Shown: in pieces, positions 34,068 to 64,000 of the stretch | How the letters are laid out: each line of letters starts with the position of its first letter | How positions within the stretch are numbered: the first letter of the stretch is position 1 | Source: Petrosia ficiformis | Lineage: Eukaryota; Porifera; Demospongiae; Haplosclerida; Petrosiidae | Assembly (NCBI GenBank): GCA_947044365.1 | Contig: OX345636.1 | Location: 11,427,809 to 11,491,808, forward strand | Length of the DNA stretch: 64,000 nt | Direction of reading: 5' to 3' | Made by a program: the position numbers and the translations under genes | Notes under the pieces: model-generated | Seen by the model: the letters and a program-made list of their open reading frames with translations, nothing else | Told to the model about the DNA's origin: nothing | Databases searched by the model: none

Positions 34068-34100
<33 letters not shown>

Positions 34101-37709: not shown

Positions 37710-37943
37710 TTAAGACGATGTATGATTAAGACAATGTATTAAATTGGAATATAGGGCATTCAGAATTGCTGCTACACTTCCAGAGAAACATGAGCTTTGC
37801 GAAACAGCATTCTGTGTATTTGTGATCACTTCAGAAATAACATTCTCTTTTATCTCCACAAACTGTTCAATTTGTTTGTTTTCACAGGTTACACTGTGAA
37901 CACTAATAATAAAAACAGCAAACAAAATCACTTTTGCAGGCAA
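37710..37943 (-). CDS. Small putative secreted protein (77 residues)
   Basis: This open frame starts with a plausible signal peptide: 'MPAKVILFAVFIISVHSVTC' has a Lys and then a hydrophobic core. A short charged segment and a Ser/Ala-rich C-terminal part with two more Cys follow. I recognise no family. It could be a genuine small secreted peptide, the first exon of a longer gene, or chance; such a signal can arise by chance in AT-rich DNA. It is not part of the Ig/FN3 copies. Confidence 0.3.
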   Translation of the reverse strand: MPAKVILFAVFIISVHSVTCENKQIEQFVEIKENVISEVITNTQNAVSQSSCFSGSVAAILNALYSNLIHCLNHTSS

Positions 37944-40219: not shown

Positions 40220-40269
40220 CTGAAAAGAAAGAACTTCAACTAAATTTTATGTTGAAAAGAACATCTTAC

Positions 40270-42120
40270 CATCAACAATTACTGCACTAGTAAACTCTCC
40301 CTGACCAGCATTAGTACTTGCTGATATAGACACCCTGTATGCTTTACCAGGATCTAGTCCACCTATAACTGCACTACTATCTGTAGCTGGTACACTTGAT
40401 ATTTCTCTCTTCCTGTTATCGTTTTGCTCATAAAGTATAAAATATGACTGAATGAATCCTCTTGTTTCAGTTATTGGTATACGAGACCAACTGATATTCA
40501 TATGAGTACCATTTAGTCTTAAGACACTGAGATTAGTAGGAACAGGAGGAACTGAAATAACAATTACACATTTTGGAATCTATATATGAACCCATATTAT
40601 ACCTACCATCTTCTTCAGTGAAAAATAGTGTCTGGTTTGAGATTCCTTCTTGTTCGATATCATTGAGTAAGTCACTAGATACACTGATGTTTTCATTATA
40701 TAATTCTCTTCTTTCATATAAACTAACAGACACAATATAATGTGTAATATTACCATTAGCTTCTTCTACTGGTGACCATGTGATTCTTACAGCACTAGTG
40801 TTTAATACTCCTATATTAATTGCTGAGACTGCTCCCGGTACTGAAGGTAAGTAAATAATCATAATAATATAATTACCACTATTTTTTTTCACTTACTATC
40901 AGATTCTGTTCTTCCTGATACATATGCAGGAGGTCCATATCCTGTCACAGTGGTAGCAGATAAAAATGCGCTGTATCTTTGATATGGTTCAAAATTTCCA
41001 GCAATAAAGCTGTGTTGTGAACCTTTGATGATGTATGTCGTAGATACATCAGTGTTGATATTCCAAACAGTTAAATTATATGTAATAATAATGCCATTTG
41101 GAGATGACCAATTAAACATGATGCTAAATTTTGAAGGAATGGAGTTGAAACACTGAGGGGGATCTTCTGGTACTACATAAAAATATTTAATCATTTTGAC
41201 ATAAATATAAATTATCACTTACTATCTTGTGTTTCAAATGTGCAAATTGCTTCCGGTCCTATTCCAACTTCATTAATAACAGATAAATTACATACATATG
41301 ATGTAAATGGTGTTAAATAAAGAATAGTGTAATTAGTTATTGGTGAATTTAGAGTATCATTGGTTCCTGATACTAGCTGATGAGTATCCACATTCTCACA
41401 TTGTAGATAATATCCAAATATGATTCCATTCTGTGAAGATCTTTCTGGTTCCATCCAATCAATAATGACAGTACGTGATAAAAATGTTGTGTTCCTACAA
41501 TCTAGAGGTTTGCCTGTTGGTACTATACATAATTATATAATACAAAAAATTAACTATTAATATATTGCCATCCAAAGTATATTAACTAACTTATGTAATA
41601 TCATAATGTGCATGTATGCAGTTAAATTATATTTAATTTCAGCTTTTCTTAGAACAATCAATCAAATCACAAATATTGCTACAATATTGCTATAGAAGAC
41701 ATAATTATAATGGGCCACAGCATGTCTTTGCATACATGCAACTGTCATAATAGTTTATGATTAAACATATAGAAGATATTACAATGACTAAAAAAGATCT
41801 TACATGCAGGTAGTGTTGTGAATTCATTGTCGATGTTGTAACACTTCCAATACAATTAACAGACACCACACTGAAATTATAAGTGTTATCTTCTTCCAGA
41901 CCTCCAGGTGTTATACTGTACTCTGGATTGATAGTACTAAGATTACTTTGTCCTAAAATTGCTGAACTGATTTTTCGTTCCTTTTGTAGTTCCAGTCCAA
42001 TATACTGTATACATTGTTCTTCGGGCATGCAAGCAATGGGTGAGACAATCAATGTAATGATAGCTGTAGTTGATGTTACTATTGTAGTGACATTCACAGG
42101 AGTAAAAGGAGGACGAGCAG
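40270..42120 (-). pseudogene. Copy C FN3 exons (matches to E19-E24)
   Basis: The E19 match (41804-42120) is 317 bases, not a multiple of three; a base is missing near 41825, so the frame is lost after 'TSTMN'. The E20 (41223-41522), E21 (40897-41172) and E24 (40270-40551) matches are open. The E22 and E23 matches have become one 234-base exon (40607-40840) with the intron and some coding sequence removed in frame. Confidence 0.82.
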
Positions 42121-45100: not shown

Positions 45101-45480
45101 ATAAAATTGATAACTTACAATGGACTATTAGTTCATATTCCTGAGAATCAGAGTCGACATCATTAGTCAATGATACATTAAACACAGCTATACATATATA
45201 CACTCCTCTGTGTTCAAATAGAACTGGATCAAGTATCACAGTTACATTAGTAACTGATCCATCTATCACTGTGATTGTAGCTATATTAAGCTCATTCAGG
45301 TCACCCATACTGACATCTTCCATCTTCATCCATGTTGTTCAACTAGTCCTTCAACTACTCTAACACTACATGTCATGATCAAACTCTGACCAACTTCAGT
45401 ATAACCACTAGTTGAGATGTTCGGTTCAAAAGGAGGCATTTCTGAAAATTGTAAAGACAGACACAGTATTCTATATCAGT

Positions 45481-45482
45481 AA

Positions 45483-45523
<41 letters not shown>

Positions 45524-45534
45524 TTATTATTATT
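45481..45534. repeat. (TTA)n microsatellite
   Basis: Trinucleotide tract in the intron between the E13 and E14 matches of copy C; shorter related tracts occur at the same position in A (about 11850-11885) and B. Confidence 0.88.
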
Positions 45535-46355
45535 GTGGTTGTTTACTTTCTACAGTAATATTCTTAGTGATGCTATTGACTCCATTCAATATCAAGTTAT
45601 CAGTAGATGATATAGTCATCTCACAGGTATATTCTCCCTGATCATCAAATGGTCCCTCATCACCATTATCAACAGGATAGAATATCAAAACACACTCAAA
45701 TGTGTTGATGCTAATCATCTCAGCTGGTAACACTGTCACACGACTATCATCCATACTAGTGATGATCTCATTACTAGGATTAATCTAAGAAACCATAGCA
45801 GAGACAGATGTGTTCACTACACTGGAGAGTGTAGCAGTACAAGTGATGTTGAGAGGTGTACTTTCGTAAATAGTATCATTAGGAGATAAAACTAGTGACA
45901 TGATAGGAGAGGATACTGTGGAAGTCAAGAGATGTGAAAATATAAATTGTGAATTGAGACAAAGCACTTACTTGTAACACTAAGCATTCTATTATCATGA
46001 GTAGATGTACCAAAATCTTGAAATACTACTATACAGAAGTAGTTTGTAGCATCAGATGTTTTCACAGGATTAATTATAAAACCTCTTGAGAATATGTTTC
46101 CATTACTCATTAATGATGATTGAGTAACATCAGAATTATCATCAACAACTTTCATATTTCCAGCTAAATCATAACTAATAATAAAACCAGTTGGTACATG
46201 TACTAGTCTCTCTGGTACAGTGGCTGTACATGTGAAATTGAACTCATCACCAGCAGTAGGTATTGATGGGAAGGCAATATCATTATCAGCAGTGAATTCT
46301 GAAGAGGATAGCAAAGTATTAATAAATGTAAATTTTAGTGGCTTTACAACGTTTT

Positions 46356-46485
46356 ATGGCCATCCCTATAATTGCTTTTCACTGGGTTATATTATGTTTG
46401 TGTCACTTGCGCAACTATTCGTTGTATATGTAGTTAAGGAAGTGTGTCATTCCCGGGGGCTGGAGCACTCAGTCCATTAATGATA
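46356..46485 (+). mobile_element. MITE-like family, truncated copy 4
   Basis: It has 'ggccatccctataattgctttt', then 'tgtgtcacttgcgcaacta ... gtcattcccgggggct', after which family similarity ends. Only the 5' quarter is present. It lies in the intron between the E11 and E12 matches of copy C. Confidence 0.78.
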
Positions 46486-46888
46486 ATATAGTGATAAAGA
46501 AACAATTATCTTATTAGTACTCAGTACATACCTTCCCCAATGAGCGTGATGTCACTATATCCATTACTCCCAGTGATATAATTAGATAAAGAAGATGGTT
46601 GTATACTGACAGAACAAGAGTAAGTATTTCCATTGTAACTTGTTATCAATTTTTTGATTTGTATTGTACTAAAATATTGATTTGTTATCAATAAAATTGG
46701 ACTAATGGAGTAGTCTGATGAATTCATAAGAGGAGATCCTCCATTATGAGACCACACTATACTAACATTCACATCAGTATTAACAGCATTACTGATAGTA
46801 ACAGTACACAGTAGATCAATATATGTACCCTCTACTAGTGTATCAACATCAGATGGATCAGTTGTAAGAAAAACCTCTGGAGTAGGTA

Positions 46889-47551
46889 CTACAACAATAG
46901 GGTAATGACATAATTATGACAAGTAAACTACAAATCATTATTCATTCCATCACACCAAAATATTTTGAGTTTATTTTTATGCAATTGTACTTTGTCATGA
47001 TTTGTATTAGGCCCAATAATAATAACACTAGACAGAATAATGTAATAATCAGAGACACACACATGCACACACACAAACACACACACACACATACACACAC
47101 ACACACAGCATCTGCAATAGTAGTGTTGCATAATTATTAATAAACACATTTCACCCCTACGTGATTCGCCGTCTGTTCCTAGCTACACGAAGCTGTCCAA
47201 ATGGTTGTAATTGGTGTCAGGCACAAGCTGATGAACGTGGCTAAAAAAGTTTATGGTTTTTCGGCCGCCCTTTGGCCTAAACAACAATCATGGGGGGAAT
47301 TTTAAAGGGGGATGTCCCCCCGTTAATGCAGGGGTTGCGAGGGGGAGCAGCCCCCTCGCTGCTGATGAATTTTGCATTTTTTGACCCCGCCCACGTGCTC
47401 TGGTGGTTACCTGAGGCATTTTCCTTGCTGTAAAACCTGAAATCGTGGGTGTAGCTGGTGCCAACATGCAGTGGGGTCATTTTGTTAGCCCCAGTTCCAG
47501 TCAAAAGAGGGAGAGCACCGCATTTGATTTGATCCTACGAAGCGCTCACTA
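46889..47551. other. Non-coding stretch with (AC)n and a GC-rich segment
   Basis: 46889-47140 is AT-rich with an (AC)n tract at 47056-47106. From about 47160 the sequence becomes GC-rich, with C and G runs and short inverted repeats (for example 'gatgtccccccgt' near 47310 and 'cagccccctcgctg' near 47350). It looks like repeat-derived DNA; I see no gene. Confidence 0.5.
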
Positions 47552-47805: not shown

Positions 47806-47829
47806 GTCTCGAAGCGCTTGGGGACCTTC

Positions 47830-48628: not shown

Positions 48629-48689
48629 CTGTATATATTTAACACATGAGTATAGAGAATTAGAATAAAGTTGATGAGATAATACTCAC

Positions 48690-50583: not shown

Positions 50584-53500
50584 TCACACAACTATAAAAT
50601 CGACACTACAGTCCTTGCATTCTGAAATTCTTTTCTTTGCTATTGATGATAGGACACGACTAGGTGCAACTTCAATGAAGCTTCGAACTCCTGATTCAAA
50701 TGCTGTCAGCATAGATTGCTTCCACTGTACTGGTGAAACCAATTGTTCCTTGAGTGAGGATTTTATCTCATCTGGAGTTACGACGATTTGTCCATATACA
50801 TTCATAATGATGGGAATTGATGGCTTTAAGAATTGTACCATATCAATGACAGGATCAACCTTCTCTGCTGCTTTCTTCATGTATGAGGAGTGGAAGGCAC
50901 CAGCTACCCGCAATTTTCTTACATCAATCACAGTTAATTGCTGTTTGTGCTCTGTGTGGAGCAGGGAATCAATCAGGGCATCACAGTCTTCTTCTGTTCC
51001 TGCTACTGTGTGTTGATTATCTGCTAGAAATGTTGAGATTTGCATTCGAGGAAAACTGTGATCAAGAAATGCTTGTAGTTGCTCCAGTGTAGGACCAAAT
51101 ACACTTACCATTCCTGTGAACGACTGTTTAACTTCATCTTCCATAACTTTCCCTCGTAGTTGAACCAACCTCAGAGCATCTTCAAAACTCATAGCATTTA
51201 CATATACAAGTGCTGCAAACTCTCCTACACTTAGTCCTGCTACATGTGTTACTTTGCGTAATATATCCGGTCTTTCTATTTTAAGCTGTTCTAGCTTGGC
51301 AATGCAACCTGTAAGCAACGATACTTGGACAAATTCCGTAGATTTGAGTTTCTCTTCAACTTCAAAAGAATCTTTCAAGCAGATTTCCAAAACATTGTAT
51401 CCCAAAACTTGTTCACCCCTCCTAAAAATGGCCTCTGCTTCTGGAACACCCTTCATATTTCTTATCATGCCTACCTTTTGTGCTCCTTGCCCAGGAAACA
51501 TGAGCAAGGATGGTTCTTCTTCCATTTTGTGGCTTATTGAAGCAGTTTTAGACACTCCAGTCAAAATCTGCTGACTGTTAACACCACTGTTCAGTGACCT
51601 ACTCAATGTGGAACTCTCGTTCGATTCTGTAAGTTCTTCCATTCCATCTGCTATATAATTAGCTAGAGCCTGAAGTGTTGGGTACCCATAGGTGTCAGCT
51701 ATTTCCAGCTGGTAGCCTATTCGTACATGGACTAAGTTCATCATCTGGATTGCCAACAGAGATTCACCTCCCAATGAATTGAAGTCATCATTTGGTTCAA
51801 TGACATCCACTCCTAGGACTTCATGCCAAATCCTTTTTAATTCCTTTTGAATTGCTCCTCTGTCAATAATAAGACCTTCAGTATCTGTATCTTTTTCTCC
51901 ATCATCCAGTTCATTGTACTTCTTAACTGGATCAAAGTGATGCGCATCTGTTTCCCACCACCCAAGCTTTGGCAGATCTGAATGGGCATTTTCGTTCAGC
52001 TTCTTACTACTGCATATAAAAAGAAATTTCTCAACATGACTTCTTTCATATTTGTCAAATGGACATGAAACAAATGAACCAAATCCTGCTTTACCTAGTA
52101 CTATTTCCCATTTCTCAGGTTCCATCATTGGCTCAGCTGGTCTAAGATCATAATCTTTGAAGAACCACCATCCATCTAGAATGCCCCAAGCAAGTGTGGC
52201 CCAAGTTTCATTTTTTGCACTTTCAATGATGAACAGTGTACCATCTGTACCAAGGCAAGACTTGAGGTTCATCACTGACTCCATGATACTCTGTGTGGTG
52301 TGTATAACATTGTATGAAATAACAATATCAAATGATCCGTAAAGACCTTGGTTTGGTGCACTTTTAGTAATGTCAAATGTGGAGAATCTCATCATGTACA
52401 AATAATCACAAAACAAGAGTTTTGCATGTTCCACGAAAGATTTACCTAGATCTGTAAACCAATACTCAATATTAGGAACATCTCTTAACTTTGGGAGAAG
52501 TTGTCTGGTAACATGGCCAACACCAGCACCAACTTCTAAGACCCTGACTGTTTTCCCCCGATTAGAGAGTTGCTTAGCATAGGCCGCTATCAGTTGCATG
52601 TACATATTATAATAGACATCACCAAGCAAATCACCAAGTTTGTCAAACTGGTACATAAAGTTAAGGTCGCCTTTAGGATAGATAACAGAAAGTGGACTCA
52701 TTTCACCTTGCAGCACTAGTTTTAAGTTCTTTGAACAGTATAGGGGGAACCTAAAGCAGTCAGCCCATGAAGGATATTTTTCAATTGTATATTTGGCAAT
52801 GACTTCTGGTTCTGTATTCAAAACATGTTGACAATTGAATTGAAAAGAGTTAAGACAATGTATGGTATCATCCCAACCAGTGGCTATGACTAGATTGTTA
52901 ATCAAAAGTTCTCTGATCATCACAAAGAAGAGCTTCTCATACTTGGTAATCATGCCCGACAGAGAAAAGGCATCTCTGAAGGTGATCATTTTGCTCTTCT
53001 GCAAATATTCTGACAAGTCTGTGCAAAGGAAATACTTGATGATGATGGAAGTACAGAACTTGTTTTGAAATTCATGGAGTTCTTGTGTTGGGCCAAGTGG
53101 TAGAGTTTTCACCAATTCTCTTGTTTCCCACACCTTTCTCTGTAATAGATCATATAAACCTTCTGAATTTGTGTCTATTACTTTCGAAGTGGTGTCAAGC
53201 CAGTGCCTAGATTCACTGTACATTGCTATAGTTACTCCCAATGCACTGTCAATTTGGCAATGATTGTTAGAAAAAAGATTTTCGATATCAATCTGTCCAT
53301 TCATCAGATAGTGATCGACTGCATGAATTGTGTGTGTTAGCTTATGTTGTTTGGGACAGTATAAATAAATATCATTGCGTACTTTGGCCAACTGTAACAG
53401 AATGTCAGTATTGTCTGAAGCGCTAATATTATTCATAATATGCGATATTTGAACAGGACATTTAGCCATTATCACTAGACGCCATTGATTGTGCCCAATT

Positions 53501-56500
53501 TTAACTTCAGCCAAATCTTTCAACCTGTGGGCGACAGTCAGGCACAAGCTAGCTAGAGTGTTACTTTTTGTCTTCTGTATCGTGAGTTGTAACAATGTAT
53601 TGTGGAGCGATATTTGCTTTCTAACCTGTTCTATACTATTGCCACAGATTAGAAGAGGATAAGAGTTAAGTTCTATTTCATCAATATGGACTTGGGAACT
53701 ATGCTCAGATATTATTGCATGGCAATTAGTTCCAGTTAGACCAAATGAACTCACACCTGCTACTCTTACTCCTGTTTCACTTTCTTTCCAAAGAATTGTT
53801 TCGGTAGGAACAAATAAAGATGACTTGACGAGTTCGGCATTTGCTGCTTTGAAATTAGCTGTTGGTGCAAGCTGTTTACTGAGAAGAGAGGCTAGCACTT
53901 TAAAAACCCCAAGCAGGCCAGCTGCAGAGTCTAGATGACCAAACATACTTTTTACAGAGCCTACAGGCAATTTGTTGCTCTTAAAGACTGATGCCAGTGC
54001 TGCAATTTCTATTCTGTCTCCCAGTTTTGTTCCAGTACCATGGGATTCTACAAAGGAAACATCCGACTGTTTGAGTTTAGCAGCTTTCAAGGCTTCTTGT
54101 ATAACGATTTGCTGTGAGCTGCAAGTCGGTGCAGTTATTCCATTTCCATGACCAACACTGTTAGATGCGATGCCCTTGACAATACCATAGATATGTTTTT
54201 TTCTACCGAGAGCATTCTTGAGAGGTTCCACATGCAGACACAACACACCTTCACCAACTGCAGTGCCACATGCATCTTTGTCAAAAGGTCTGCAGTGAAA
54301 GTCTGACGATAGAATACTTGTTTTGCCAAAAATACCTGTTTTTGCTGGATAGAGTACAAGGCTAACACCTCCTACCAATGCACTTTCACACTCATTTCTC
54401 TTTATTGACTCACATGCTTCTTTCAATGCAATTAGTGAAGACGAACAAGCAGTGTCGATAAGCATTGTAGGGCCTTTAAGGTCCCACTGGTAGGCAATTC
54501 GAGTGGCAATCATTCCAGGCATTAATCCTGAAACGCATACTGCTTCATCCGGGTGATTGAGTTGAGAGTACCCAATCTCAGAACTTCCGACGAACACACC
54601 GATTTTAGAACCTTTAATCTCAGACAGTTTAGTACCTTCTGCCAGAGCTTCAGTTGCTACATGAAGAAAAAGCCTTTGTTCAGGAGACATGAACTTTGCT
54701 TCACCTGGTGCTATCTTAAAAAAGTGGTGATCGAAGTGGTCAATTTTTTCAAGAAAAGCTCCTTGAAATGTATCAGCTTCAGATAGTTTCTTTGCATCAT
54801 ATGATGAAAGGCAGCTTATTACATCATTCCTTCTTGACTCAGGAAAGTTTCTAATTAAATCACTACCCCTTTCTAATACTTCCCAAAGTTGTGATAGTGA
54901 CATGATCCCCCCTGGGAGTCTCAGACCTAAACCAGTAATTGCTACATCATCTAGATTTTGACTTTCTGTATTTCCATCAAATTCTCCTTCAACTGGTTGG
55001 TAATCATCTGTTTCAATTTTTGTGTTCTCATTACAAATATATCCTGCGAGAGAGGTTATGCTTGGGTGAGAGAATATGTCAGCAATTCCAACATTAAATG
55101 TCGTTTTCTGTTTTATTAACGAAGAGAAATGAATTAGAATTAATGAGTGACCACCCTGTTCCATGAATGTCAGTTCAGAGTGAATTTGATTGGAGTCTGA
55201 CATTCCCATTGCTTCAGCAAATAGTTCTTTTAAAGTTGATGTAGCTGAATACTGACTGCAATTTGTAGTCTTAATTTCAGGTTTAGTCACCAAAACTTCT
55301 GAGACTTTTGGCAGAGCTCTGTGGTTAACTTTTCCATGTGCAGTGAGAGGTATTTCGTCAATAATATGTACAATATCAGGCAACATATAGTATGGCAATT
55401 TCAGTTGGTTGCATACAGTTTGCCGGTCTAAATTACATTCATTACAATTCACATTGGGAACCACAAAAGCACAAAGAAATTGAATTCCACTGTCGTCACC
55501 ACTGGTCATGGGAACAACACATGTGTCCTTTATACCGTTGATAGATTTGACTAGCTGGTTTTCAATTTCAGCAGTGCTGATTCGAAAGCCTCGGAGCTTA
55601 ACCATATTGTCCAGTCGGCCTAGAAGCTCAACATTTCCAGAGGGCAGCCAGCAAGCAGCATCACCAGTCATTAGTGCATAACACTGTAGATGTTTTACAG
55701 GAACTAATTCAACATCACCTTTACCTAAAACTGGACCACTAATGCAGAGTTCACCAATTGTGCCAATTGGACAGACTTGAAGAGTTTTTGAGTCTAGAAT
55801 GTGAAAATTTACACCTGGTAATGGTTTACCAATTGGCACTGCTCCACTTCTTGTTTTTGGGAGATGGTCTCCTTCAAAGAACGAAGAATCGATGGTAGCT
55901 TCAGTCATTCCATAACTGTTGATCAGTCTTTGGTCTTTCCTAAGTAGGCCTTTGACTCTCTCATACAAGTGACAATGTAGTATATCAGAGCCCAGAATGA
56001 GAAGTTTAAGAGAATCTAAGTCACCAATACTAGCGTTCTCAACAAGCTGTAAGCCAAATTGAGGCGTAACTTCAGACATAGTTATTTTGTGTTTCTTAAT
56101 AAGATTAATTATGTAAGGCACATCCAATCTATACATATCAGGACACATAACAAGCTGGCCCTGAGCACAAACAAGAGCTCTGGTTACATCACCTACAAAG
56201 ACATCAAAAGACAATGGTGCCCATTGTAGTACATTAACTTTAAAGGTGTTCATTTTGTACTCTTCTTTCCAAGCATTAGCAATACATCCAAGGCTCTTGT
56301 GTGAGATCTTGCATTGCTTTGGCGTGCCAGTAGACCCAGAAGTTTGGATGATGTAAGCCAGGTCATCTTCAGATGTCATTAACATCACTTGAAAGTCTTC
56401 TGATGGGTCTTTAGTGAGTTCTTTCACATCCAACATTGGACAAGTTTGAAAATTCTTTACTATTGAAGAAATGCTATCAAGTTGAACATTAAACAAAACC

Positions 56501-59500
56501 GCAGCCGGTACACTTCGTTCGAAAATATCTTGGAGGCAATTCTGATTGCTTAGGGCAACTGGTAGGAAGTGACCTCCAGCTTTCCAGATGCCCAGAATTG
56601 ATGCAATTACATACTCATTTTTATTCATCACAATCACTACAGGTTTGCTTTTCAAACTGGTTGTATCCACATATTTGTAAAGACCATGTGCAATTCTATT
56701 GGCCATCTCATTCAGTTGATTGTAAGATAGCAAAGTATTATTACAAATCACCGAGATAGCATCTGGGTTTTGTACAACATGCTCCTCAAATGCTTTAAAA
56801 ATTAACATGTTTCCTTTGGGATTATAGGCATCATGAGACGAATTGAATGACTTCAATAATTCGTGCTCAAGAGGAGAGAGAGAGTCAATATCAAGCAGTT
56901 TAGAGTCGGTTGCTTTCAATGCTTTGCTGTACATTTTAACTATGCCATCAGTTAACCTTACAGCAATTTCATCATTTACAAGTTCAACAGCCCATTCAGT
57001 TTGGAGTTCAACAATTGACTCTTCCTCATTGTAGATGATATCTAGACTTAAAGGCATTTTAGCATGTTTTGAATGCACTTTCAACTCGTTTTCATATTTG
57101 CAACATGTAGAATAGTTGAACATCACACAGCAGAATGAATTCGCACCTTTACCATGCTCTTTCCATAATCTGTTTGTAACCTGGTCAAGAGGATATTGTG
57201 AATGGCTTAACGTCTTCAGCCAGCTTTCAGCAACAGTTTTGATATATTCTCTTAAAGTCATGCTTGGATCTACAACTATTCTGAATAAAACAGTGTTTAC
57301 AAAGAGGCCATCTGTATATTGATAGATGTCAGTCCGTGTTGTAACTGGAATGGCAAAGGTTATCTCATTCACACCTAGATATCTCTGCACTACTAGCGAG
57401 GTACAAGAAAGATAGAACTGAAACTGTGTCACAGCTAAAGCATTGCAATATGAAGTAATCTCTTCAACAGTCTCAGGAGGAATGCATTTGCAGCAATTCA
57501 TTGCCGAGTAGATATTTGTATCACTCCATGTAGATACAGTTTTAGGAAGAATTGCTAAATTGACATCAGGTGGGAGGGTGGCAAACATATCTTTCCAGAA
57601 CTTGCCATCAATATCATATTTTGATGATCTGAAATAGCTGTCCTCAGAGGTAATAAAAGAGGCAAAAGATGCGCTATTAGCAACTGCATTTCTTTTTAGT
57701 GATGATTCACCCATAAGTTTGAGAAGATCCTGAGAAATGTGTTTTAGTGTGATATCGTCAATGATCATGTGGTGGATATGTAGTACTAGGATACTGAAAT
57801 CGCCGGCTTTCAAATGTCGAAAGATGGCTAGTGGAGTTGAGAGTATATCTATTGAAGGAATTGATCTCCTCAGAAAATCAGCTGCAGTCTCCATATCTTC
57901 AACTACTTCAGGCTGAACTGCATAAGCACATTCTCCTTCATCATTCAGAATCATTATATATCTTTGACTTTGAGTGTCTATTTCAATTCTAGATTTTAGG
58001 ATTGGGTGCTCCTTCACTAAATCTTTTAGAATGTCTTGTGAATTTATTCTATTTCTTGTGAAGCAAGAAATTGTTTCAACGTAAGCGGTTGAATCAGGAG
58101 CAGACAACTGCATCATTACCATTCTTTGTTGAGCTGTAGAGAGGCTCACAATTTTCTCATTCAACTGCCTTACTTCTTTCTTGTCTTCACGAGTGATCTT
58201 AGCATGTAAAACAATGGCTTTGAAATCACTGTAGATGGGATTTTGTAGTAAATCCATGATACTAATGTCAATGCCACAGATTCTCTGGAGCTTTGACACT
58301 AGAAATACGGCAAAGAATGAGTTACCACCACACGTGAAGAAATTAACAGAATCTTCAGGTTCCCATTTAATATGAAGTACTTCCATCCATGCTAATTTCA
58401 GACAAAGTTGTCTATCCAAAATTTCTCCATCTACATGCTTCAAATCATCTTTAATGAGATATTCACATGGTGGAATGATGGGGAACATATCATGCTGAAT
58501 ACTTTGCTGCTTTTGGGATGAAGACCACACCGTATCAATCCACTGATTTACTTCTCTAAAACCCATGACACAGTGAGCACTTGTCAAAGCTAGTTTACCA
58601 TGGCTCTCCACCAATACTTCAACCGGGTATACATTTTCAGAAAACTCATCCAGGTCAGCCAGGTATTGAATTTGGTGAATTTTCTCAACAGATGTTGGCA
58701 AATTGAAGCTGTCTACTGTAATATACATAAGAGACAGTCCACTACACTCTACATTTAGTGACTTTAGAAACTCCAGACATGGAATGTTGCGACCTGTCTG
58801 ATTAACTGCTAATTGAAGACAATTTGATTTTGCCTCATTTGTAATTTCATACAGGATTCTCCGTTCTACTTCCCTTCCAAGAGCTCTGCAGCTCAGCACC
58901 CATTCGTTAACAAATAAGTTATTAGCACATTTAGAGAGTAAGACAACACTTATAATGCCATAAGAACCATGCTGATCTTCAAGTGATATCAACCAGCAAT
59001 AATCTTCATCTCTTGCATCATTTAACTTGATGTTTACATTATTCAATTTGAATTGAGTTGTTCTGTGCAGAAGTTCAGTAGCTCTTTTAAACAGTTTTTC
59101 GTTATGTTTTAGTGAAGCAACTGTAGTCTTACACAATGTAAGTTTCATTTCCCACTGCAAAAGTAGTTCAAGCAGCTTAAATGTGGTAGCTGAAGAATCC
59201 CCATTTTCTATGTTTTTGACCTCTTTCTGTCGGGCAAACTCACTTTTGTACATTTCAGTCCTATTGATAGATTCACTAGTGACACACATTTTGTCAAGCA
59301 ACCATAGACTATCTAGCAAGGGAGATACAAGCTGTTGTTCACTTGGAAACTGGAGTGTGAAGACTTCAGGATGAGATTCGATCATTGTTTCACATTCAAG
59401 GCTACTGTCATCAATAAAAACAAAGGTGTCTAGACCAAGATTCAGTAACTGCGAAACATGCATGATATTTGTAGCTTTCTGTTCCCAGTTAGCACTAATA

Positions 59501-62500
59501 AATACAAAGTCATCTCTGTTTAAGGTCATTTTGTTTTTCTGTATTTCGAACACAGCTTCAACATCATGTATATTATTCTTGCTTAGAATTACTAGTAACA
59601 TGCCTTGATTCTTCATTTTCAGCAAGAATTCATGAAGAATAACATTACCGTGATTAAAAGTAACGATTCCTTCGGCACATTCACCATTCCATAAAGTATA
59701 ATCTGCATCAACAGCTATCACCTTGTAAGTAGTATTAAAAATAGTAGTTCGAATTATTCTCGCAATAAACAGGCCAAAATGTGCATAGCCAATTTGTGTG
59801 AAGGGCATACTGTATTGTTCGTGTGTTTTGCTGTCACTGAATAATTCTGAAATATAGTCTGGAAGCTGTATAATTTTGCTCTTTTCAGGCAAGAGTTTAG
59901 CAGGAAATTTAGCATTACTTGATATAGCTTTGGTTGTTATGATGACAACATCTCTATCTATCCTTAAATCCCTAAACTTATTATAGGTTTCAAGATATTC
60001 CATTGCTTGGTTATTCAATTCTAAGCCGGGAATTATAATTGTAACATCTACAGCTTTTCCAGCAACATATAGAGACTGTAGTGCTTGTTCAAAAGGATAT
60101 ACAATCATTTCATCAACAGAGATCCTGTGATGCCATAGTGCATCTTTGATTATTTCAATACATTCAGGGGAAATGTTGAAGCCTGGAATGACTTCCACTT
60201 TGATTGCTTTCGTAATATCTTTTGTTCTCTCGGCCAAAATGCTTAAGTTATTCGCAACACTATTCATCACATCTTCCACCAGAGATTCACTGATGACTTC
60301 TTTGTCAAACAAGTAGCCGATTTTTAACATTCCCCCATGAATCCAGGATATCATTTCTAAGTCAAATTCCAGGATCTCCTCAGGATGGCGATGGAAATTC
60401 CCATCCTTCAAATCATGCAGCATAACCTCTATCCATGGTGTGTGTTCAAATTTAAAATCGCCACCATTGAATGCTTCCTTATTACTTGCATCGAGGGATC
60501 CTTGAAATACAAACATGATCTTTGGATATGATATTTTTACTTTTCCTGCAGACTTCAATAATCCAAATCCAAGGCCTCGGTTTGGTATTCCATTTAGCAT
60601 CTCAGAAATCAACTTTACTTGACTAACAAAGTCTTTTGTTTTTGGAGTGTCAAGTATAAACGGGAACTTACTGGTGCACCAACCGACAGTATCAGTTGAA
60701 TCCAAGCTTGCCAGTTGTCTACCATGACTTTCAAGGCATATTGCAGTTTTATCTTTACCATGCACTGAAGATAACGCTATACCGAAAGCAGTCAGAAGAA
60801 TTTGCTCGTGAGAACATCCAAGTTTAGTTGCTGTTGATAACAGTAGACTTGCATCTAGTGCTTTGCTAATCCATTTGGCTGATTTAAATCTACCAAGGAT
60901 GTTATGTTGGGAAACAACTCCAGATTCCATGCACTGCTTCTCAATGGCTTTCCAGTAAGAGATTTCTTCAGTGAAGATACCACTGCTGGCTTCTGCATGA
61001 AGGGCTTGGCAAAACGCAGAGAAAGGAAGCATGCTTTTCTGTAGAACAGGTTCACTACTGTCATTTTCACTGAGCTGCTGTAGGGCTGTTGCCAAGTCAT
61101 CTAAGATCTGTTGCCAAGAAACTGTATCAGTTACAGCATGATGAATTGCTATAAGTACATAAACCTGTAGATTGGATTCTTCTTTTTGATTAAGAGGACA
61201 TGAAACAGTTTCTGCTGAGGTAATTATAGCAGCATTCACAAGAATTCCTTTTGAAAGAGAATGGCTTTCTTCTAGTTGTTGGCAAAGAGCAGAAAATGCT
61301 GGTTCACTGCTTAAGTGCTCATGCTCTTTGACAATAAAAACTTCAGTAACCTTCGGTTCATCTGGATCAAGTTCAATAACTTGTTGTTCAGTACCACCAT
61401 CGCTGACTTCAAACTTAGAGTGAAGTGATTGATGTTTTTTCATCACACTTCGCAAAGCTGTCTGTAAGAGTTTAATTTCCAGTTTGCTGTTAAATCTAAG
61501 CAGAGCCGACAGAGCAAAGTGATCAGGATGATTTAGAGGTGGTGACCTATTGAGGTATTCCTCAACAATAGGAGTAGGTTGGAATTTTACATTCTCTTGC
61601 TCATTTGCAAATTGATGCTCCATGTTACCATCATTGCCAGCATTACTCTGAAGTATGGGGACAAGTTTGTTAATGCTAGGATTTTGAAATATATCTGCTA
61701 TAGATATTTTGAATCCTTCATTCCTCATTTTCCTGATGAGGTGAATTGCTTGCAGTGAGTCACCAGATAGGTCCAAGAAGAAATTTTCATCAGGATGGGG
61801 GAGGTGGTTAACAGGTAGAATACCTTGCCAAATTTTTTGTAGTCTTGAGACTGTTGTGGAAATCGAAGTCTCACACATCTGCACATCTGGTTTCTTGCTG
61901 CTGTTTTCATTACCTGCAATTAAATGCTCTATAAATAGTTGTTGTAAGAAAGGAATATTCTTCTTTCCATTTGCATTTGTTGGTGGAGCAGATACATCAA
62001 CCAAAACTTTTGGGATTGATCTTGCTGGTAGGGATTGTGCCAGAGAGGAAGTAAGCATTGGTTTCCAAGATTGGTTAGAAAATGAGCTCTCTGGTTTGAG
62101 CTTTACAGCAGCTCCAAGGTAGGTATGACATTTGTAAACAAAACTACAGACCCAGGCACTTTCTACAAGATGGGTGTTTTCAATAGCATGCTGTATTTCC
62201 AACAAATCTACTCTAATGCCATTAACTTTGGTGGTGTTGCAATCTTTCTTTCTGCCAAAGTAAGCCAGCTCACATATTGGCATCATTTCTACAATATCAT
62301 CAGTTAGTAGCATCTGTTCACCTGGTCTTCCCCAGCACGCAGCAGCAAAACATTTCCTTCTGTTAGCTACTTTAGTTGGTCCAGATCCAACGAAGTCTGA
62401 GCAAAGACATCTACCTCCGATACTGAGGGTTCCCTTCCCTCCAACTGGTACAGATTTAAAGTTATCCCCTACAACAGCAATGGTGACATTATCAATTGGT

Positions 62501-64000
62501 TGACCAATTGAAACAAAGTCTGATTGGTCAAGGGGGAGATCTTCACTAAAAAAGCGTTTTACAACACACCCAACGGTGGCTTCAGTCGGTCCATATTCAT
62601 TCCACACTACAAAGTCACTGCATAATTTGTTTTTCTTCAATTTAGCAAGAAGTGTTGAAGTCAATTCTTCTCCACCAATAATGAAAGTTGAAGCACTTAG
62701 AGGTAGTTTAGTTACAGACAGTATTACATCCAGCTGAAGTGGGGAAAGTTTCATTGTTGTTATGTGTGTACATGCAATCATTGCTAAATATGATTCCTGG
62801 AAATTTTTGAAGAAGAGAATGGTACTTCCACTTAATAAGGGAGGGAAGATGCTCGTTAATGTAAAGTCGAAGGTAAGAGGTGAAAACATTGGTATCGTTA
62901 CTGTATCATCAAATTTGTATGCTGTTTTTGCCCAGGTTACATAGTTAAGCAAAGCTACTTGACCAATGATAACACCTCTTGGTAGCCCAGTAGTTCCAGA
63001 CGTGTACAGTATATATACTTCATCATGAAGATTGATTTCAGTTGCCAACTCGTACACAGTTCGATGTAAGTCATCCGTACTTCTATATTTCGACTCCAAT
63101 GAGTTTTTAACATCATTAAGTGCATATGTCCCGAATTCTTCAATCTCATTAGGAAATCTGTCAATGCTGCTAGACTTTGTGAAGAGTGCATCATATCTAA
63201 ATTTGGTTAGTTCATTAGCTATAGAATAAATCTTTCTCGAGCATGACACTTTCTTTAATGTAGCGGAAGAGTGACACAAATAACGAATAAACTTCCTTGA
63301 TAAAAAAAGCTCGTTATGCCATTCGGTTTTTACCCTATGTTTAGGATGAGCATCCTTGAATGTCTTTAGTGAAATTATGAGCTCCTCTTGCAAATCTTGA
63401 TCCATTATATCTCCTATAAAGATAACTCCATTTTCACTGAGTAATTCTTCACATGCATTAAAAACTCTATGCAGATAGCTATGTCCAGGAAAGCAATGTA
63501 CGACACTGTTCATAATGATAATATCAAATTTGTGATGATGGAACACCTGACTAACTTGATCAGCTGGTATACAAGACAATTCAACATTACCCACTTCTTT
63601 GTGAAGTAGTTTCTTCTCCAGTCGTTTGATCATCTGCTCAGAAAGATCAGTTGCAAAGTAATAACCAACAAGTGGACAAATTGCCTGTGTGGTTAGCCCA
63701 GATGCACAGCCGATTTCAAGCACTTTACATGCGGGACTTAGATATTTGTGGAGTTTCTCAGAAACATTCTTAGTGTACTCGTTCATTTCTTCTATGCTCA
63801 AATGCTGGCCTGTGTAGGAGCTCTTCCAGCCACCACCTTCAATGTCATCCTCTGCATTTGAAGCTACACAATTCCATAGTTCTTTATCCATCAGAGGAAC
63901 CCCAAAAGCATCCTCTTGAAGTTCTTGGAAGTCATCACCATCAACACAAAGTATCATCTTAACAGATGGACATGCCCACTGCAGGCAATTCGCTAGAGCT
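50584..64000 (-). CDS. Giant hybrid NRPS-PKS with FkbH, epimerase and C-terminal AT (5' partial)
   Basis: One uninterrupted frame covers more than 4,470 codons, from the right edge (still open at 63999) to TGA at 50584-50586, with no intron. Residues below count from Met at 63957; that Met is not the start, because the frame continues upstream as 'LQWACPSVK'. Domain order: adenylation (A1) split by a methyltransferase, PCP, epimerase, FkbH (HAD plus GNAT-like), PCP, condensation, A2, PCP, ketosynthase, C-methyltransferase, ACP, malonyltransferase-type AT. No thioesterase, reductase, KR, DH or ER is present. It should act as a cytosolic assembly line making a peptide-polyketide after phosphopantetheinylation. 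Base composition resembles its surroundings. It lies on the same strand as receptor copies B and C. All catalytic motifs that I checked are intact, which argues for function. Family-level assignment is strong; product prediction is inference. Confidence 0.93.
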   Translation of the reverse strand, partial: ALANCLQWACPSVKMILCVDGDDFQELQEDAFGVPLMDKELWNCVASNAEDDIEGGGWKSSYTGQHLSIEEMNEYTKNVSEKLHKYLSPACKVLEIGCASGLTTQAICPLVGYYFATDLSEQMIKRLEKKLLHKEVGNVELSCIPADQVSQVFHHHKFDIIIMNSVVHCFPGHSYLHRVFNACEELLSENGVIFIGDIMDQDLQEELIISLKTFKDAHPKHRVKTEWHNELFLSRKFIRYLCHSSATLKKVSCSRKIYSIANELTKFRYDALFTKSSSIDRFPNEIEEFGTYALNDVKNSLESKYRSTDDLHRTVYELATEINLHDEVYILYTSGTTGLPRGVIIGQVALLNYVTWAKTAYKFDDTVTIPMFSPLTFDFTLTSIFPPLLSGSTILFFKNFQESYLAMIACTHITTMKLSPLQLDVILSVTKLPLSASTFIIGGEELTSTLLAKLKKNKLCSDFVVWNEYGPTEATVGCVVKRFFSEDLPLDQSDFVSIGQPIDNVTIAVVGDNFKSVPVGGKGTLSIGGRCLCSDFVGSGPTKVANRRKCFAAACWGRPGEQMLLTDDIVEMMPICELAYFGRKKDCNTTKVNGIRVDLLEIQHAIENTHLVESAWVCSFVYKCHTYLGAAVKLKPESSFSNQSWKPMLTSSLAQSLPARSIPKVLVDVSAPPTNANGKKNIPFLQQLFIEHLIAGNENSSKKPDVQMCETSISTTVSRLQKIWQGILPVNHLPHPDENFFLDLSGDSLQAIHLIRKMRNEGFKISIADIFQNPSINKLVPILQSNAGNDGNMEHQFANEQENVKFQPTPIVEEYLNRSPPLNHPDHFALSALLRFNSKLEIKLLQTALRSVMKKHQSLHSKFEVSDGGTEQQVIELDPDEPKVTEVFIVKEHEHLSSEPAFSALCQQLEESHSLSKGILVNAAIITSAETVSCPLNQKEESNLQVYVLIAIHHAVTDTVSWQQILDDLATALQQLSENDSSEPVLQKSMLPFSAFCQALHAEASSGIFTEEISYWKAIEKQCMESGVVSQHNILGRFKSAKWISKALDASLLLSTATKLGCSHEQILLTAFGIALSSVHGKDKTAICLESHGRQLASLDSTDTVGWCTSKFPFILDTPKTKDFVSQVKLISEMLNGIPNRGLGFGLLKSAGKVKISYPKIMFVFQGSLDASNKEAFNGGDFKFEHTPWIEVMLHDLKDGNFHRHPEEILEFDLEMISWIHGGMLKIGYLFDKEVISESLVEDVMNSVANNLSILAERTKDITKAIKVEVIPGFNISPECIEIIKDALWHHRISVDEMIVYPFEQALQSLYVAGKAVDVTIIIPGLELNNQAMEYLETYNKFRDLRIDRDVVIITTKAISSNAKFPAKLLPEKSKIIQLPDYISELFSDSKTHEQYSMPFTQIGYAHFGLFIARIIRTTIFNTTYKVIAVDADYTLWNGECAEGIVTFNHGNVILHEFLLKMKNQGMLLVILSKNNIHDVEAVFEIQKNKMTLNRDDFVFISANWEQKATNIMHVSQLLNLGLDTFVFIDDSSLECETMIESHPEVFTLQFPSEQQLVSPLLDSLWLLDKMCVTSESINRTEMYKSEFARQKEVKNIENGDSSATTFKLLELLLQWEMKLTLCKTTVASLKHNEKLFKRATELLHRTTQFKLNNVNIKLNDARDEDYCWLISLEDQHGSYGIISVVLLSKCANNLFVNEWVLSCRALGREVERRILYEITNEAKSNCLQLAVNQTGRNIPCLEFLKSLNVECSGLSLMYITVDSFNLPTSVEKIHQIQYLADLDEFSENVYPVEVLVESHGKLALTSAHCVMGFREVNQWIDTVWSSSQKQQSIQHDMFPIIPPCEYLIKDDLKHVDGEILDRQLCLKLAWMEVLHIKWEPEDSVNFFTCGGNSFFAVFLVSKLQRICGIDISIMDLLQNPIYSDFKAIVLHAKITREDKKEVRQLNEKIVSLSTAQQRMVMMQLSAPDSTAYVETISCFTRNRINSQDILKDLVKEHPILKSRIEIDTQSQRYIMILNDEGECAYAVQPEVVEDMETAADFLRRSIPSIDILSTPLAIFRHLKAGDFSILVLHIHHMIIDDITLKHISQDLLKLMGESSLKRNAVANSASFASFITSEDSYFRSSKYDIDGKFWKDMFATLPPDVNLAILPKTVSTWSDTNIYSAMNCCKCIPPETVEEITSYCNALAVTQFQFYLSCTSLVVQRYLGVNEITFAIPVTTRTDIYQYTDGLFVNTVLFRIVVDPSMTLREYIKTVAESWLKTLSHSQYPLDQVTNRLWKEHGKGANSFCCVMFNYSTCCKYENELKVHSKHAKMPLSLDIIYNEEESIVELQTEWAVELVNDEIAVRLTDGIVKMYSKALKATDSKLLDIDSLSPLEHELLKSFNSSHDAYNPKGNMLIFKAFEEHVVQNPDAISVICNNTLLSYNQLNEMANRIAHGLYKYVDTTSLKSKPVVIVMNKNEYVIASILGIWKAGGHFLPVALSNQNCLQDIFERSVPAAVLFNVQLDSISSIVKNFQTCPMLDVKELTKDPSEDFQVMLMTSEDDLAYIIQTSGSTGTPKQCKISHKSLGCIANAWKEEYKMNTFKVNVLQWAPLSFDVFVGDVTRALVCAQGQLVMCPDMYRLDVPYIINLIKKHKITMSEVTPQFGLQLVENASIGDLDSLKLLILGSDILHCHLYERVKGLLRKDQRLINSYGMTEATIDSSFFEGDHLPKTRSGAVPIGKPLPGVNFHILDSKTLQVCPIGTIGELCISGPVLGKGDVELVPVKHLQCYALMTGDAACWLPSGNVELLGRLDNMVKLRGFRISTAEIENQLVKSINGIKDTCVVPMTSGDDSGIQFLCAFVVPNVNCNECNLDRQTVCNQLKLPYYMLPDIVHIIDEIPLTAHGKVNHRALPKVSEVLVTKPEIKTTNCSQYSATSTLKELFAEAMGMSDSNQIHSELTFMEQGGHSLILIHFSSLIKQKTTFNVGIADIFSHPSITSLAGYICNENTKIETDDYQPVEGEFDGNTESQNLDDVAITGLGLRLPGGIMSLSQLWEVLERGSDLIRNFPESRRNDVISCLSSYDAKKLSEADTFQGAFLEKIDHFDHHFFKIAPGEAKFMSPEQRLFLHVATEALAEGTKLSEIKGSKIGVFVGSSEIGYSQLNHPDEAVCVSGLMPGMIATRIAYQWDLKGPTMLIDTACSSSLIALKEACESIKRNECESALVGGVSLVLYPAKTGIFGKTSILSSDFHCRPFDKDACGTAVGEGVLCLHVEPLKNALGRKKHIYGIVKGIASNSVGHGNGITAPTCSSQQIVIQEALKAAKLKQSDVSFVESHGTGTKLGDRIEIAALASVFKSNKLPVGSVKSMFGHLDSAAGLLGVFKVLASLLSKQLAPTANFKAANAELVKSSLFVPTETILWKESETGVRVAGVSSFGLTGTNCHAIISEHSSQVHIDEIELNSYPLLICGNSIEQVRKQISLHNTLLQLTIQKTKSNTLASLCLTVAHRLKDLAEVKIGHNQWRLVIMAKCPVQISHIMNNISASDNTDILLQLAKVRNDIYLYCPKQHKLTHTIHAVDHYLMNGQIDIENLFSNNHCQIDSALGVTIAMYSESRHWLDTTSKVIDTNSEGLYDLLQRKVWETRELVKTLPLGPTQELHEFQNKFCTSIIIKYFLCTDLSEYLQKSKMITFRDAFSLSGMITKYEKLFFVMIRELLINNLVIATGWDDTIHCLNSFQFNCQHVLNTEPEVIAKYTIEKYPSWADCFRFPLYCSKNLKLVLQGEMSPLSVIYPKGDLNFMYQFDKLGDLLGDVYYNMYMQLIAAYAKQLSNRGKTVRVLEVGAGVGHVTRQLLPKLRDVPNIEYWFTDLGKSFVEHAKLLFCDYLYMMRFSTFDITKSAPNQGLYGSFDIVISYNVIHTTQSIMESVMNLKSCLGTDGTLFIIESAKNETWATLAWGILDGWWFFKDYDLRPAEPMMEPEKWEIVLGKAGFGSFVSCPFDKYERSHVEKFLFICSSKKLNENAHSDLPKLGWWETDAHHFDPVKKYNELDDGEKDTDTEGLIIDRGAIQKELKRIWHEVLGVDVIEPNDDFNSLGGESLLAIQMMNLVHVRIGYQLEIADTYGYPTLQALANYIADGMEELTESNESSTLSRSLNSGVNSQQILTGVSKTASISHKMEEEPSLLMFPGQGAQKVGMIRNMKGVPEAEAIFRRGEQVLGYNVLEICLKDSFEVEEKLKSTEFVQVSLLTGCIAKLEQLKIERPDILRKVTHVAGLSVGEFAALVYVNAMSFEDALRLVQLRGKVMEDEVKQSFTGMVSVFGPTLEQLQAFLDHSFPRMQISTFLADNQHTVAGTEEDCDALIDSLLHTEHKQQLTVIDVRKLRVAGAFHSSYMKKAAEKVDPVIDMVQFLKPSIPIIMNVYGQIVVTPDEIKSSLKEQLVSPVQWKQSMLTAFESGVRSFIEVAPSRVLSSIAKKRISECKDCSVDFIVV
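50593..51516 (-). other. C-terminal malonyl-CoA transferase (AT, FabD-like)
   Basis: Residues about 4148-4455. 'FPGQGAQKVGM' (4154-4164), 'GLSVGE' with active Ser 4243, 'LRGKVM' with R4269, and 'GAFHS' with H4356 are present. The motif set resembles stand-alone malonyl-CoA:ACP transferases. Its position after the ACP, at the extreme C-terminus, differs from the usual KS-AT order. The protein ends 18 residues beyond the last recognisable strand, with no release domain. Confidence 0.87.
51643..51855 (-). other. Acyl carrier protein
   Basis: Residues about 4035-4105. 'DDFNSLGGESLLAIQMMNLV' has the attachment Ser at 4066. Confidence 0.87.
52003..52770 (-). other. PKS C-methyltransferase domain
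   Basis: Residues about 3730-3985. SAM motif 'VLEVGAGVG' (3806-3814), 'FDIVISYNVIHTT' and 'LDGWWFF' (3927-3933) fit the C-methyltransferases of reducing and hybrid synthases, which methylate the alpha carbon of the beta-keto intermediate. Confidence 0.85.
53698..54951 (-). other. Ketosynthase domain
   Basis: Residues about 3003-3420. It starts 'DVAITGLGLRLPGG'. The active Cys is in 'DTACSSSL' (C3171), His in 'ESHGTGTKLGD' (H3306), and Lys/His in 'VKSMFGHLDSAAG' (K3336, H3341). All catalytic residues are present. The following linker (to about 3700) contains 'VDHYLMNGQIDIENLF', a normal post-AT type linker, but no AT domain between KS and methyltransferase. Confidence 0.92.
55018..55245 (-). 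other. Peptidyl carrier protein 3
   Basis: Residues about 2905-2980. 'FMEQGGHSLILIH' has the attachment Ser at 2938. Confidence 0.87.
55288..56835 (-). other. NRPS domain A2
   Basis: Residues about 2375-2890. A3 is 'QTSGSTGTPKQ' (last Gly replaced by Gln), A5 'NSYGMTEAT', A7 'LMTGDAACWL', A8 'GRLDNMVKLRGFRISTAEIE' and A10 'LTAHGKVNHRAL'. The by-eye code, from D2585, V2586, G2589, E2629, L2653, L2655, S2681, I2689, D2690 and K2876, is DVGELLSIDK. Eight of ten positions match the ornithine code DVGEIGSIDK. The transfer of bacterial codes to this protein is uncertain. Confidence 0.84.
56908..58170 (-). other. Condensation domain
   Basis: Residues about 1930-2350. 'SLSTAQQRM' (C1), 'HHMIIDD' (2062-2068, catalytic second His and Asp) and 'DGLFVNTVLFR' (from 2216) are typical. 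The Gly after the motif's first Asp is replaced by Asp. It should join the unit on the upstream carrier to the amino acid on PCP3. Confidence 0.86.
58213..58440 (-). other. Carrier protein 2 (follows FkbH)
   Basis: Residues about 1840-1915. 'FFTCGGNSFFAVFLV' carries the attachment Ser at 1880. There is no condensation domain between the epimerase and this carrier. Confidence 0.85.
58663..60210 (-). other. FkbH domain (HAD phosphatase/glyceryl transferase plus GNAT-like part)
   Basis: Residues about 1250-1765. The HAD nucleophile motif is 'VDADYTLWNGECAEG', with D1417 and D1419. 'VILSKNN' (1456-1462), 'NWEQKATNI' with K1494, and 'FIDDSSLE' with D1516/D1517 complete the active site. The region 1600-1760 ('HRTTQFKLN', 'CRALGREVERRIL') matches the C-terminal acyltransferase-like half. 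Known FkbH domains take 1,3-bisphosphoglycerate and load a D-glyceryl group on a carrier protein, here presumably PCP2, which follows directly. Confidence 0.88.
60223..61584 (-). other. Epimerization domain
   Basis: Residues about 792-1245. Motifs are of E type rather than plain C type: 'HHAVTDTVSW' (939-948), 'ESHGR' (1076-1080, with the catalytic Glu), 'VGWCTSKFP' (1091-1099), 'GLGFGLLK' (1128-1135) and 'FVFQG' (1149-1153). It follows A1-PCP1 as in bacterial A-PCP-E initiation modules, so it should convert the PCP1-bound residue to the D form. Confidence 0.87.
61648..61851 (-). other. Peptidyl carrier protein 1
   Basis: Residues about 703-770. The motif 'DENFFLDLSGDSLQAIHLI' has the phosphopantetheine Ser at 734 (SGDSL in place of GGDSL). 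Confidence 0.88.
61888..64000 (-). other. NRPS domain A1: adenylation domain interrupted by methyltransferase
   Basis: The core motif A3 is 'YTSGTTGLPRG' (residues 318-328), A5 'NEYGPTEATVG' (453-463) and A7-like 'LLTDD' (550-554). A8 begins with 'GRKKD' (568) and A10 is 'NANGKK' (661-666). Just before A3, where the N-terminal subdomain should be continuous, there is a methyltransferase; the frame upstream ('PSVKMILCVDGDDF') looks like the part preceding A3. The by-eye ten-residue code, from D364, F365, T368, K403, I426, G428, E454, V462, G463 and K665, is DFTKIGEVGK. This is close to the asparagine code DLTKLGEVGK. Confidence 0.82.
63223..63780 (-). other. Methyltransferase inserted in A1
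   Basis: Residues about 60-245. The SAM-binding motif I is 'VLEIGCASG' (79-87), followed by 'FATDLSEQM' and 'FDIIIMNSVVHCFPG'. Methyltransferases placed between A2 and A3 are known in some bacterial interrupted adenylation domains, where side-chain methylation has been described. Whether this one acts on N, O or a side chain cannot be told. Confidence 0.8.

Follow-up and report, generated by a model that had tools for sequence, protein, structure and literature searches.

Animal-encoded hybrid NRPS-PKS chemistry is known from nematodes, whose nemamide synthetases PKS-1 and NRPS-1 form a pair of proteins that include reductive domains and a thioesterase (TE). Natural products of sponges and corals are usually credited to symbionts. 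According to the available text of a 2024 survey, all animal phyla investigated other than sponges and ctenophores have PKSs, sponge genomes yielded no protein with a KS apart from mitochondrial FAS, and some mollusc PKSs contain C domains (PMC10764717). The available text of another survey reports NRPSs in seven of 19 phyla, including an echinoderm-mollusc clade on short scaffolds, and its lists do not include Porifera (PMC10531068).

Here we describe a hybrid NRPS-PKS frame found in a 64,000-nt stretch of DNA, which we refer to as the window. Like the nemamide synthetases, it combines both chemistries, but the search of the window turned up no TE and no reductive domain for it. The frame probably represents roughly the last three quarters, towards the 3' end, of an intact synthetase gene that is animal-encoded and belongs to an old family, whose layout is KS1-T1-C1-A1(MT1)-T2-E-FkbH-T3-C2-A2-T4-KS2-cMT-T5-AT. 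We are highly confident that this is an intact animal gene whose family is present in several phyla and moderately confident of the building blocks, but have little confidence in the product. If the host is a sponge, which is likely, the synthetase contradicts the negative result for sponges in the available text of the 2024 survey (PMC10764717).

Gene extent and genomic setting

The ORF scan identified a single intronless frame of 13.4 kb running off the high end of the window (Table 1). The first-pass annotation, which had claimed an uninterrupted frame of more than 13.4 kb, was borne out by 4471 open codons on the minus strand; the second-longest ORF comprises 573 aa (among ORFs of at least 150 aa). 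The earliest ATG of the synthetase frame within the window is at 63957. The homologues P0002 and P0004 carry 1334 and 1363 residues, respectively, upstream of the window's first residue, comprising KS1, T1, C1 and the first part of A1, so that about 4 kb of the synthetase gene lies beyond position 64000. Rfam families (at gathering thresholds) and tRNAs were both absent from the window, and viral contigs scanned with the query P0001 gave no match.

Table 1. Positions of the synthetase, its domains and the adjacent receptor gene in the window.
Feature	Position	Strand	Evidence or remark
Hybrid NRPS-PKS ORF	50584..63999	-	4471 codons; stop codon 50584-50586; 5' end beyond window
MT1, methyltransferase insertion within A1, ahead of core motif A3 (residues ~60-260)	63220..63822	-	Methyltransf_12 etc.
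A1 core (A3-A10), code DFTKIGEVGK, Asn-like	61900..63102	-	Profiles, motif alignment, code comparison
T2 carrier (GDSL)	61600..61857	-	Profile and motif
E (epimerization) domain	60205..61602	-	Tree with bacterial E domains (1.000); TIGR01720 35.8 bits, cut-off 74.2
FkbH glyceryl-transferase/phosphatase-like domain	58720..59742	-	TIGR01686 194.4 bits, cut-off 146.65; residues
T3 carrier (GGNS)	58210..58422	-	Motif, domain-wise comparison
C2 condensation domain (HHxxxDD)	56860..58212	-	Pfam, motif
A2 adenylation domain, code DVGEIGSIDK, ornithine	55300..56817	-	Pfam, code comparison
T4 carrier (GGHS)	55015..55257	-	Motif
KS2 ketosynthase, no AT directly after; C, H, H present	53560..54966	-	Pfam, motif, tree
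cMT, catalytic part of C-methyltransferase	52030..52662	-	Best solved match CurJ C-MT 5thy, 119.4 bits
T5 carrier (GGES)	51640..51867	-	Pfam, motif
C-terminal AT (GLSVGE, GAFHS), FabD/MCAT type	50587..51522	-	Profiles, motif, tree
Receptor gene of Ig/FN3 type with many introns; third copy, diverged	37700..46913	-	Self-comparison, exon ends, Pfam

The neighbouring receptor gene, with the typical GT-AG introns described by the first-pass annotation, was confirmed: the ends of the 19 exon cores inspected fit AG acceptors and GT donors, and one exon matched Ig_2 with an E-value of 4e-5 and 24.2 bits, which is under the Pfam cut-off of 27. Its exon closest to the ORF starts at about 46889 on the minus strand, 3.7 kb from the synthetase stop. 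The gene, its introns and the distance were as annotated, with the correction that the 3.7 kb separates the 3' end of the synthetase from the 5' side of the receptor gene, not from its end; both genes lie on the minus strand. The joined Ig/FN3 exons returned 12 weak matches with no phylum signal.

Two inverted receptor copies of the same Ig/FN3 type, 96-98% identical, occupy 1-19650 (+) and 20637-35632 (-), and the third copy at ~37.7-46.9 kb is 79-85% alike. The inverted pair may be a palindromic assembly artefact, though its arms differ by 2-4%. Copy 1 holds a 4.36 kb stretch (4172-8527) with a reverse-transcriptase frame (4690-6486, RVT_1), for which copy 2 has an empty site at 30914/30915. 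Among the best 120 of 2324 relatives of this reverse transcriptase, Dysidea avara (52%), a sponge, is the sole animal named, no cnidarian is named, and the one other organism name is an Alphaproteobacteria MAG. In the intergenic gap (47000-50583), GC reaches 0.40 and CpG o/e 0.49; a 164-aa frame located there (47757-48251) matched no Pfam family.

The base composition of the ORF resembles that of the flanks. CpG o/e is 0.31 in both ORF halves, compared with 0.20-0.49 in the flanks, and the depletion extends over all three codon junctions (0.25 at 1-2, 0.36 at 2-3, and 0.33 at 3-1), accompanied by raised TpG (1.25-1.32) and CpA (1.44-1.46). Both the CpG depletion and the raised TpG/CpA are as in the flanks. 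As a control, the median CpG o/e was 1.17 over 58 bacterial loci, with two AT-rich loci as low as 0.39 and 0.45; these two show no TpG/CpA excess (0.92-1.11, computed for five of the 58 loci). Because this excess is missing in the two low-CpG bacterial loci, methylated animal DNA fits better than an AT-rich symbiont. Strong CpG depletion matches Amphimedon-type genomes, while other sponges vary, according to the available text of a published comparison (PMC7385117). Together with the Dysidea avara match of the reverse transcriptase, this speaks for a sponge as the likely host.

Domain organization and substrate codes

Pfam, NCBIfam and domain-wise BLAST assigned the order MT1 inside A1, A1 core, T2, E, FkbH, T3, C2, A2, T4, KS2, C-methyltransferase, T5, AT and stop. 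The window therefore holds 13 domains instead of the twelve counted earlier, whereas the conserved catalytic residues reported with that count were confirmed. In the alignment of 28 rows, the window retains the motifs of A1, T2, E, FkbH, T3, C2, A2, T4, KS2, cMT, T5 and AT, each compared with the rows covering it. The C2 motif reads HHxxxDD, not HHxxxDG. The FkbH domain scores above the curated TIGR01686 cut-off and keeps the HAD residues; DxDxT, SxN, W, K, DD and SCR are all retained in comparison with 57 bacterial domains and 11 family rows, where the conservation of DxDxTLW is built in since the bacterial loci were retrieved with that motif.

A single line unites C, A, carrier, KS and AT domains with intact active sites, and by this architecture the protein is a hybrid NRPS-PKS. 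Ketoreductase, dehydratase, enoylreductase and thioesterase are absent among the 16 Pfam families matched. The lack of KR, DH and ER families among these, together with an AT that does not follow a KS, separates the protein from animal FAS and FAS-like PKSs (AFPKs). It has an AT-less KS module and a KS of the AT-less clade in common with trans-AT PKSs, but its AT is fused at the C terminus instead of residing on a separate protein.

In the animal family, the E domain is located directly before FkbH, an arrangement not seen in any bacterial locus inspected. Bacterial loci carry FkbH in C-FkbH-T modules. L046 and L058 extend this to E-C-FkbH-T, and the same sequence is split over two frames in L001 and L043, where E ends one and C-FkbH starts the next. 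We considered the domain preceding FkbH as a bacterial-style C domain and rejected this assignment, since the tree places it with E domains. In this tree of 106 domains, which took the first 25 of 36 E-labelled rows, 25 of 305 C-labelled rows and all 27 pre-FkbH rows (labels by position), the animal rows grouped with 22 of the 25 bacterial rows labelled E with a support of 1.000, and not with C. The three other E-labelled bacterial rows fall among C domains and may be mislabelled. The E-associated NCBIfam profile TIGR01720 matched the animal E domain with 7e-9, below its cut-off (Table 1), and the best solved matches were bacitracin synthase 3 and then gramicidin S synthase 1.

We located the ten pocket positions of A1 and A2 by motif, and all ten columns agree in a joint alignment with 445 other A domains. 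The A1 code DFTKIGEVGK (I/V at one position) is present in all 17 rows covering A1, a count that leaves out 11 of the 28 rows (gaps, and two misaligned letters in P0025-P0027). The A2 code DVGEIGSIDK (I/V at one position) is found in 22 of the 26 rows covering A2, with P0022 and P0028 left out; the exceptions P0023, P0025, P0026 and P0027 constitute a shorter group with drifted codes. As the gene models of the two molluscs cover A2 and not A1, cnidarians are the only named animals to which the A1 code can be linked. The Asn-like call for A1 is based on DLTKLGEVGK, which we take to be an asparagine code; the literature search found no paper giving it as such. DVGEIGSIDK is assigned to ornithine in the available text of a published study (PMC3992020). 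Among the 445 A domains (from bacterial loci and rows P0029-P0121), the A2 code occurs once, in P0073, the best A2 match outside the family, and the A1 code does not occur; the nearest to the latter is DLTKIGEVGK in Hyalangium L043 and Enterovibrio P0076.

Animal relatives and origin of the synthetase

The whole-protein search found 346 proteins. The first 27 among the 120 listed (P0002-P0028) form the family and stand ahead of the first bacterial row. Within the family, 11 of these 27 rows span 100% of the query. The rows listed from P0029 onward, bacterial where named, cover at most 35%. The closest full-length row among the matches listed is P0003, with 61% identity along the whole query. 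Named relatives are Actinia tenebrosa LOC116297562 (54% identity over 100% of the query), Dendronephthya gigantea LOC114525576 (53% over 100%), Patella vulgata "polyketide synthase PksJ" (52% over 59%) and Dreissena polymorpha DPMN_087944 (42% over 84%); P0024, a EukProt transcript, matches at 35% over 100%. No nematode is named among the best 120 of 346. As judged from these sequences, the spread over phyla rests on four species, Actinia, Dendronephthya, Dreissena and Patella. Their proteins are like that of the window in collinear domains, A2 code and active-site motifs, but differ in being 42-54% identical and annotated as other things, the Actinia protein as a fatty acid synthase. A description of these homologues as one family was not found in the literature searched. 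The layout is collinear in the cnidarians, and in the molluscs from T2 or T3 on, with the order E-FkbH-T-C-A-T-KS-cMT-T-AT common to Actinia, Dendronephthya and Dreissena.

P0002, from a 6.9 Mb contig, is 95.1% identical over 3334 aligned residues and lacks exactly KS2-cMT-T5. The join falls on the 4-base repeat ACTG, and the gap may be a real deletion, a variant or an artefact. A GT-AG intron as the missing piece was rejected, provided that its DNA resembles the window's, because the join lies on ACTG with no AG acceptor at the end.

In an unrooted FastTree analysis of 28 rows, the window and P0002 grouped with P0003 and P0015 (0.914), then with P0014 (0.795) and then with Actinia (0.602). 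A quick unrooted IQ-TREE run with 17 rows and 4338 columns placed the window with P0003 (91) and P0014 (91), then with P0005, P0007 and P0010 (95). The placement of the long rows P0020 and P0024 is unsure in these animal trees. P0023, P0025, P0026 and P0027 make up a shorter family of 2602-2778 aa, with matches to a KS1-like start, C2, A2, T4, KS2, cMT and T5. They have no A1-E-FkbH matches and their A2 codes have drifted, perhaps indicating a second animal line.

We built a KS tree of 86 rows, taking the 40 best of the 75 AT-less rows and 30 of the 35 cis rows, with labels by position. In it, KS1 and KS2 fall together (0.996) with the AT-less KSs from Cohnella L021, Paenibacillus L036, Grimontia P0056 and Enterovibrio P0076. 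The nearest solved structure of the cMT is the CurJ C-methyltransferase. Among solved structures, the AT profile ranks 2c2n best with 179.5 bits, before FabD 3im9 (162.7) and PksC (154.3). 2c2n is presumably human mitochondrial MCAT; the near-identical 8csp is labelled mitochondrial. In control searches, MCAT is missing from FabD's list of 23 (E up to 1e-40), and PksC ranks two MCAT chains 29th and 30th of 34. MCAT and the animal ATs also join in the AT tree (0.948; 47 rows, 30 of 38 bacterial rows labelled by position, one mitochondrial MCAT row, long branches). This affinity to mitochondrial MCAT suggests that a host malonyltransferase was fused to a bacterial-type line, and bacterial ancestry of most domains is plausible given the grouping of the KSs.

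A bacterial or fungal symbiont gene misjoined to host DNA during assembly would account for the bacterial-type domains and the lack of introns, the somewhat higher GC and CpG of the 3.7 kb gap, and the low CpG also found in two AT-rich bacterial loci. We regard such a contaminant as very improbable: the CpG loss with TpG/CpA excess resembles the flanks, and this excess is missing in those two loci (among the five of 58 computed), full-length homologues exist in the Actinia and Dendronephthya records and another on a 6.9 Mb contig, and coverage by non-family proteins stops at 35% (best 120 of 346). Symbiont origin is unlikely because of the composition shared with the flanks and the collinear homologues in named animals, and host encoding, as proposed at first, is supported by the same dinucleotide pattern and by collinear homologues in two cnidarians and two molluscs. 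A recent transfer from a bacterium into this host lineage, since ameliorated, is extremely improbable. The affinity of the KSs to AT-less bacterial KSs and the single long exon would agree with it, but cnidarians and molluscs have the same order at 42-54% identity, and the best non-family match per domain reaches only ~25-44% in the set examined. The first-pass proposal of horizontal transfer with adaptation to host base composition can thus hold in an ancient sense at most: a recent transfer is too young for collinear homologues in named animals, and the order shared by Actinia, Dendronephthya and Dreissena implies that any transfer predates their split or ran between animals. If the gene were a relic, decayed or without catalytic function, or if its protein had been recruited to another role, this could explain P0002 without KS2-cMT-T5, the missing C domain between E and FkbH, and the lack of a release domain; against 4471 open codons, kept active-site residues and 61% identity to P0003 over the full query, we consider it quite unlikely. 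We rejected contamination, recent bacterial transfer and relic status on the evidence against each.

Spread of the old family by animal-to-animal transfer or patchy loss, instead of simple vertical descent from the first animals, is a substantial minority possibility. Few species are named, the two trees disagree on the window's neighbours (Actinia or P0005/P0007/P0010), and NRPSs are scattered over animal phyla in the available text of the NRPS survey (PMC10531068). However, the codes are constant, and identity drops roughly with the expected distance, from 61% for P0003 to 53-54% for the cnidarians and 42% for Dreissena.

Proposed chemistry and comparison with known lines

We propose that a host PPTase would arm the carriers and that the C-terminal AT would give malonate to the AT-less KS modules. 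KS1/T1 would supply an acyl group, which C1 would join to asparagine on T2, where MT1 may methylate asparagine and E would convert it to the D form. FkbH is expected to take a glyceryl unit from 1,3-bisphosphoglycerate and load it onto T3, and C2 would couple the chain arriving from upstream to T4-bound ornithine. KS2 might then add one malonate, with cMT methylating the alpha carbon on T5. Because E, not C, directly precedes FkbH, no domain stands out as the catalyst that would move the chain from T2 to the glyceryl carrier: E may perform this transfer, C2 may take two donors, or FkbH-T3 may be a side-loading unit. As no thioesterase or reductive domain was found, the simplest release would be an attack of an ornithine nitrogen on the beta-keto thioester, giving a lactam or pyrrolidinedione, or the action of a separate hydrolase. 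The product, the release and the T2-to-T3 step are predictions.

More speculatively, and with a probability a little short of even, many marine invertebrates might make one and the same ancestral animal metabolite, composed of acyl-D-Asn, glycerate, ornithine and a C-methylated ketide, on one chemically fixed line predating the sponge/cnidarian/bilaterian split. This line would have arisen within an early eukaryote by joining NRPS/KS modules of bacterial origin to the host mitochondrial malonyltransferase, and sponges would have kept it in spite of the negative survey result. The constant codes across phyla point to a conserved small molecule, and an intact host-encoded line with such codes in several phyla makes animal-produced hybrid peptides testable in anemones and molluscs.

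A search of titles and abstract openings, whose scope excluded most subscription journals and all preprints, found no published description of this domain layout. Members of the window's family may be present among the C-domain-containing PKSs of molluscs and in the NRPS clade of echinoderms and molluscs, but the available texts mention no FkbH, E or code for them, and sponges are negative or unlisted there (PMC10764717, PMC10531068). Bacterial C-FkbH-T modules and KS-T-C-FkbH-T-C-A-T lines (Opitutales L046, Hyalangium L043, Cohnella panacarvi L021 and Paenibacillus terricola L036) resemble the window in having FkbH in the place of an A domain, and L021 and L036 also have an AT-less KS related to the family's KS1/KS2. 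Unlike the window, these four have a C domain before FkbH, the AT of L021 lies in a separate frame, and the window's FkbH is 26-35% identical to bacterial FkbH (58 loci). L021 and L036 are the KS-T-C-FkbH-T-C-A-T lines; their A codes are DVWHFSLVDK, and in L021 an AT-like frame is located nearby.

Acyl-D-Asn prodrug lines such as that of xenocoumacin may share with the window's family an acyl source followed by C-A(Asn-like)-T-E, but in the family an MT lies inside A1, the line continues into FkbH-T, and no cleaving peptidase is known, as compared with the available text (PMC10811503). The order acyl source-C-A-T-E is present in P0004, C1 being located beyond the window and Asn being predicted from the A1 code. 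Compared with these systems, the synthetase is ordinary in kind, an assembly line, and unusual in its place, age, layout and constancy.
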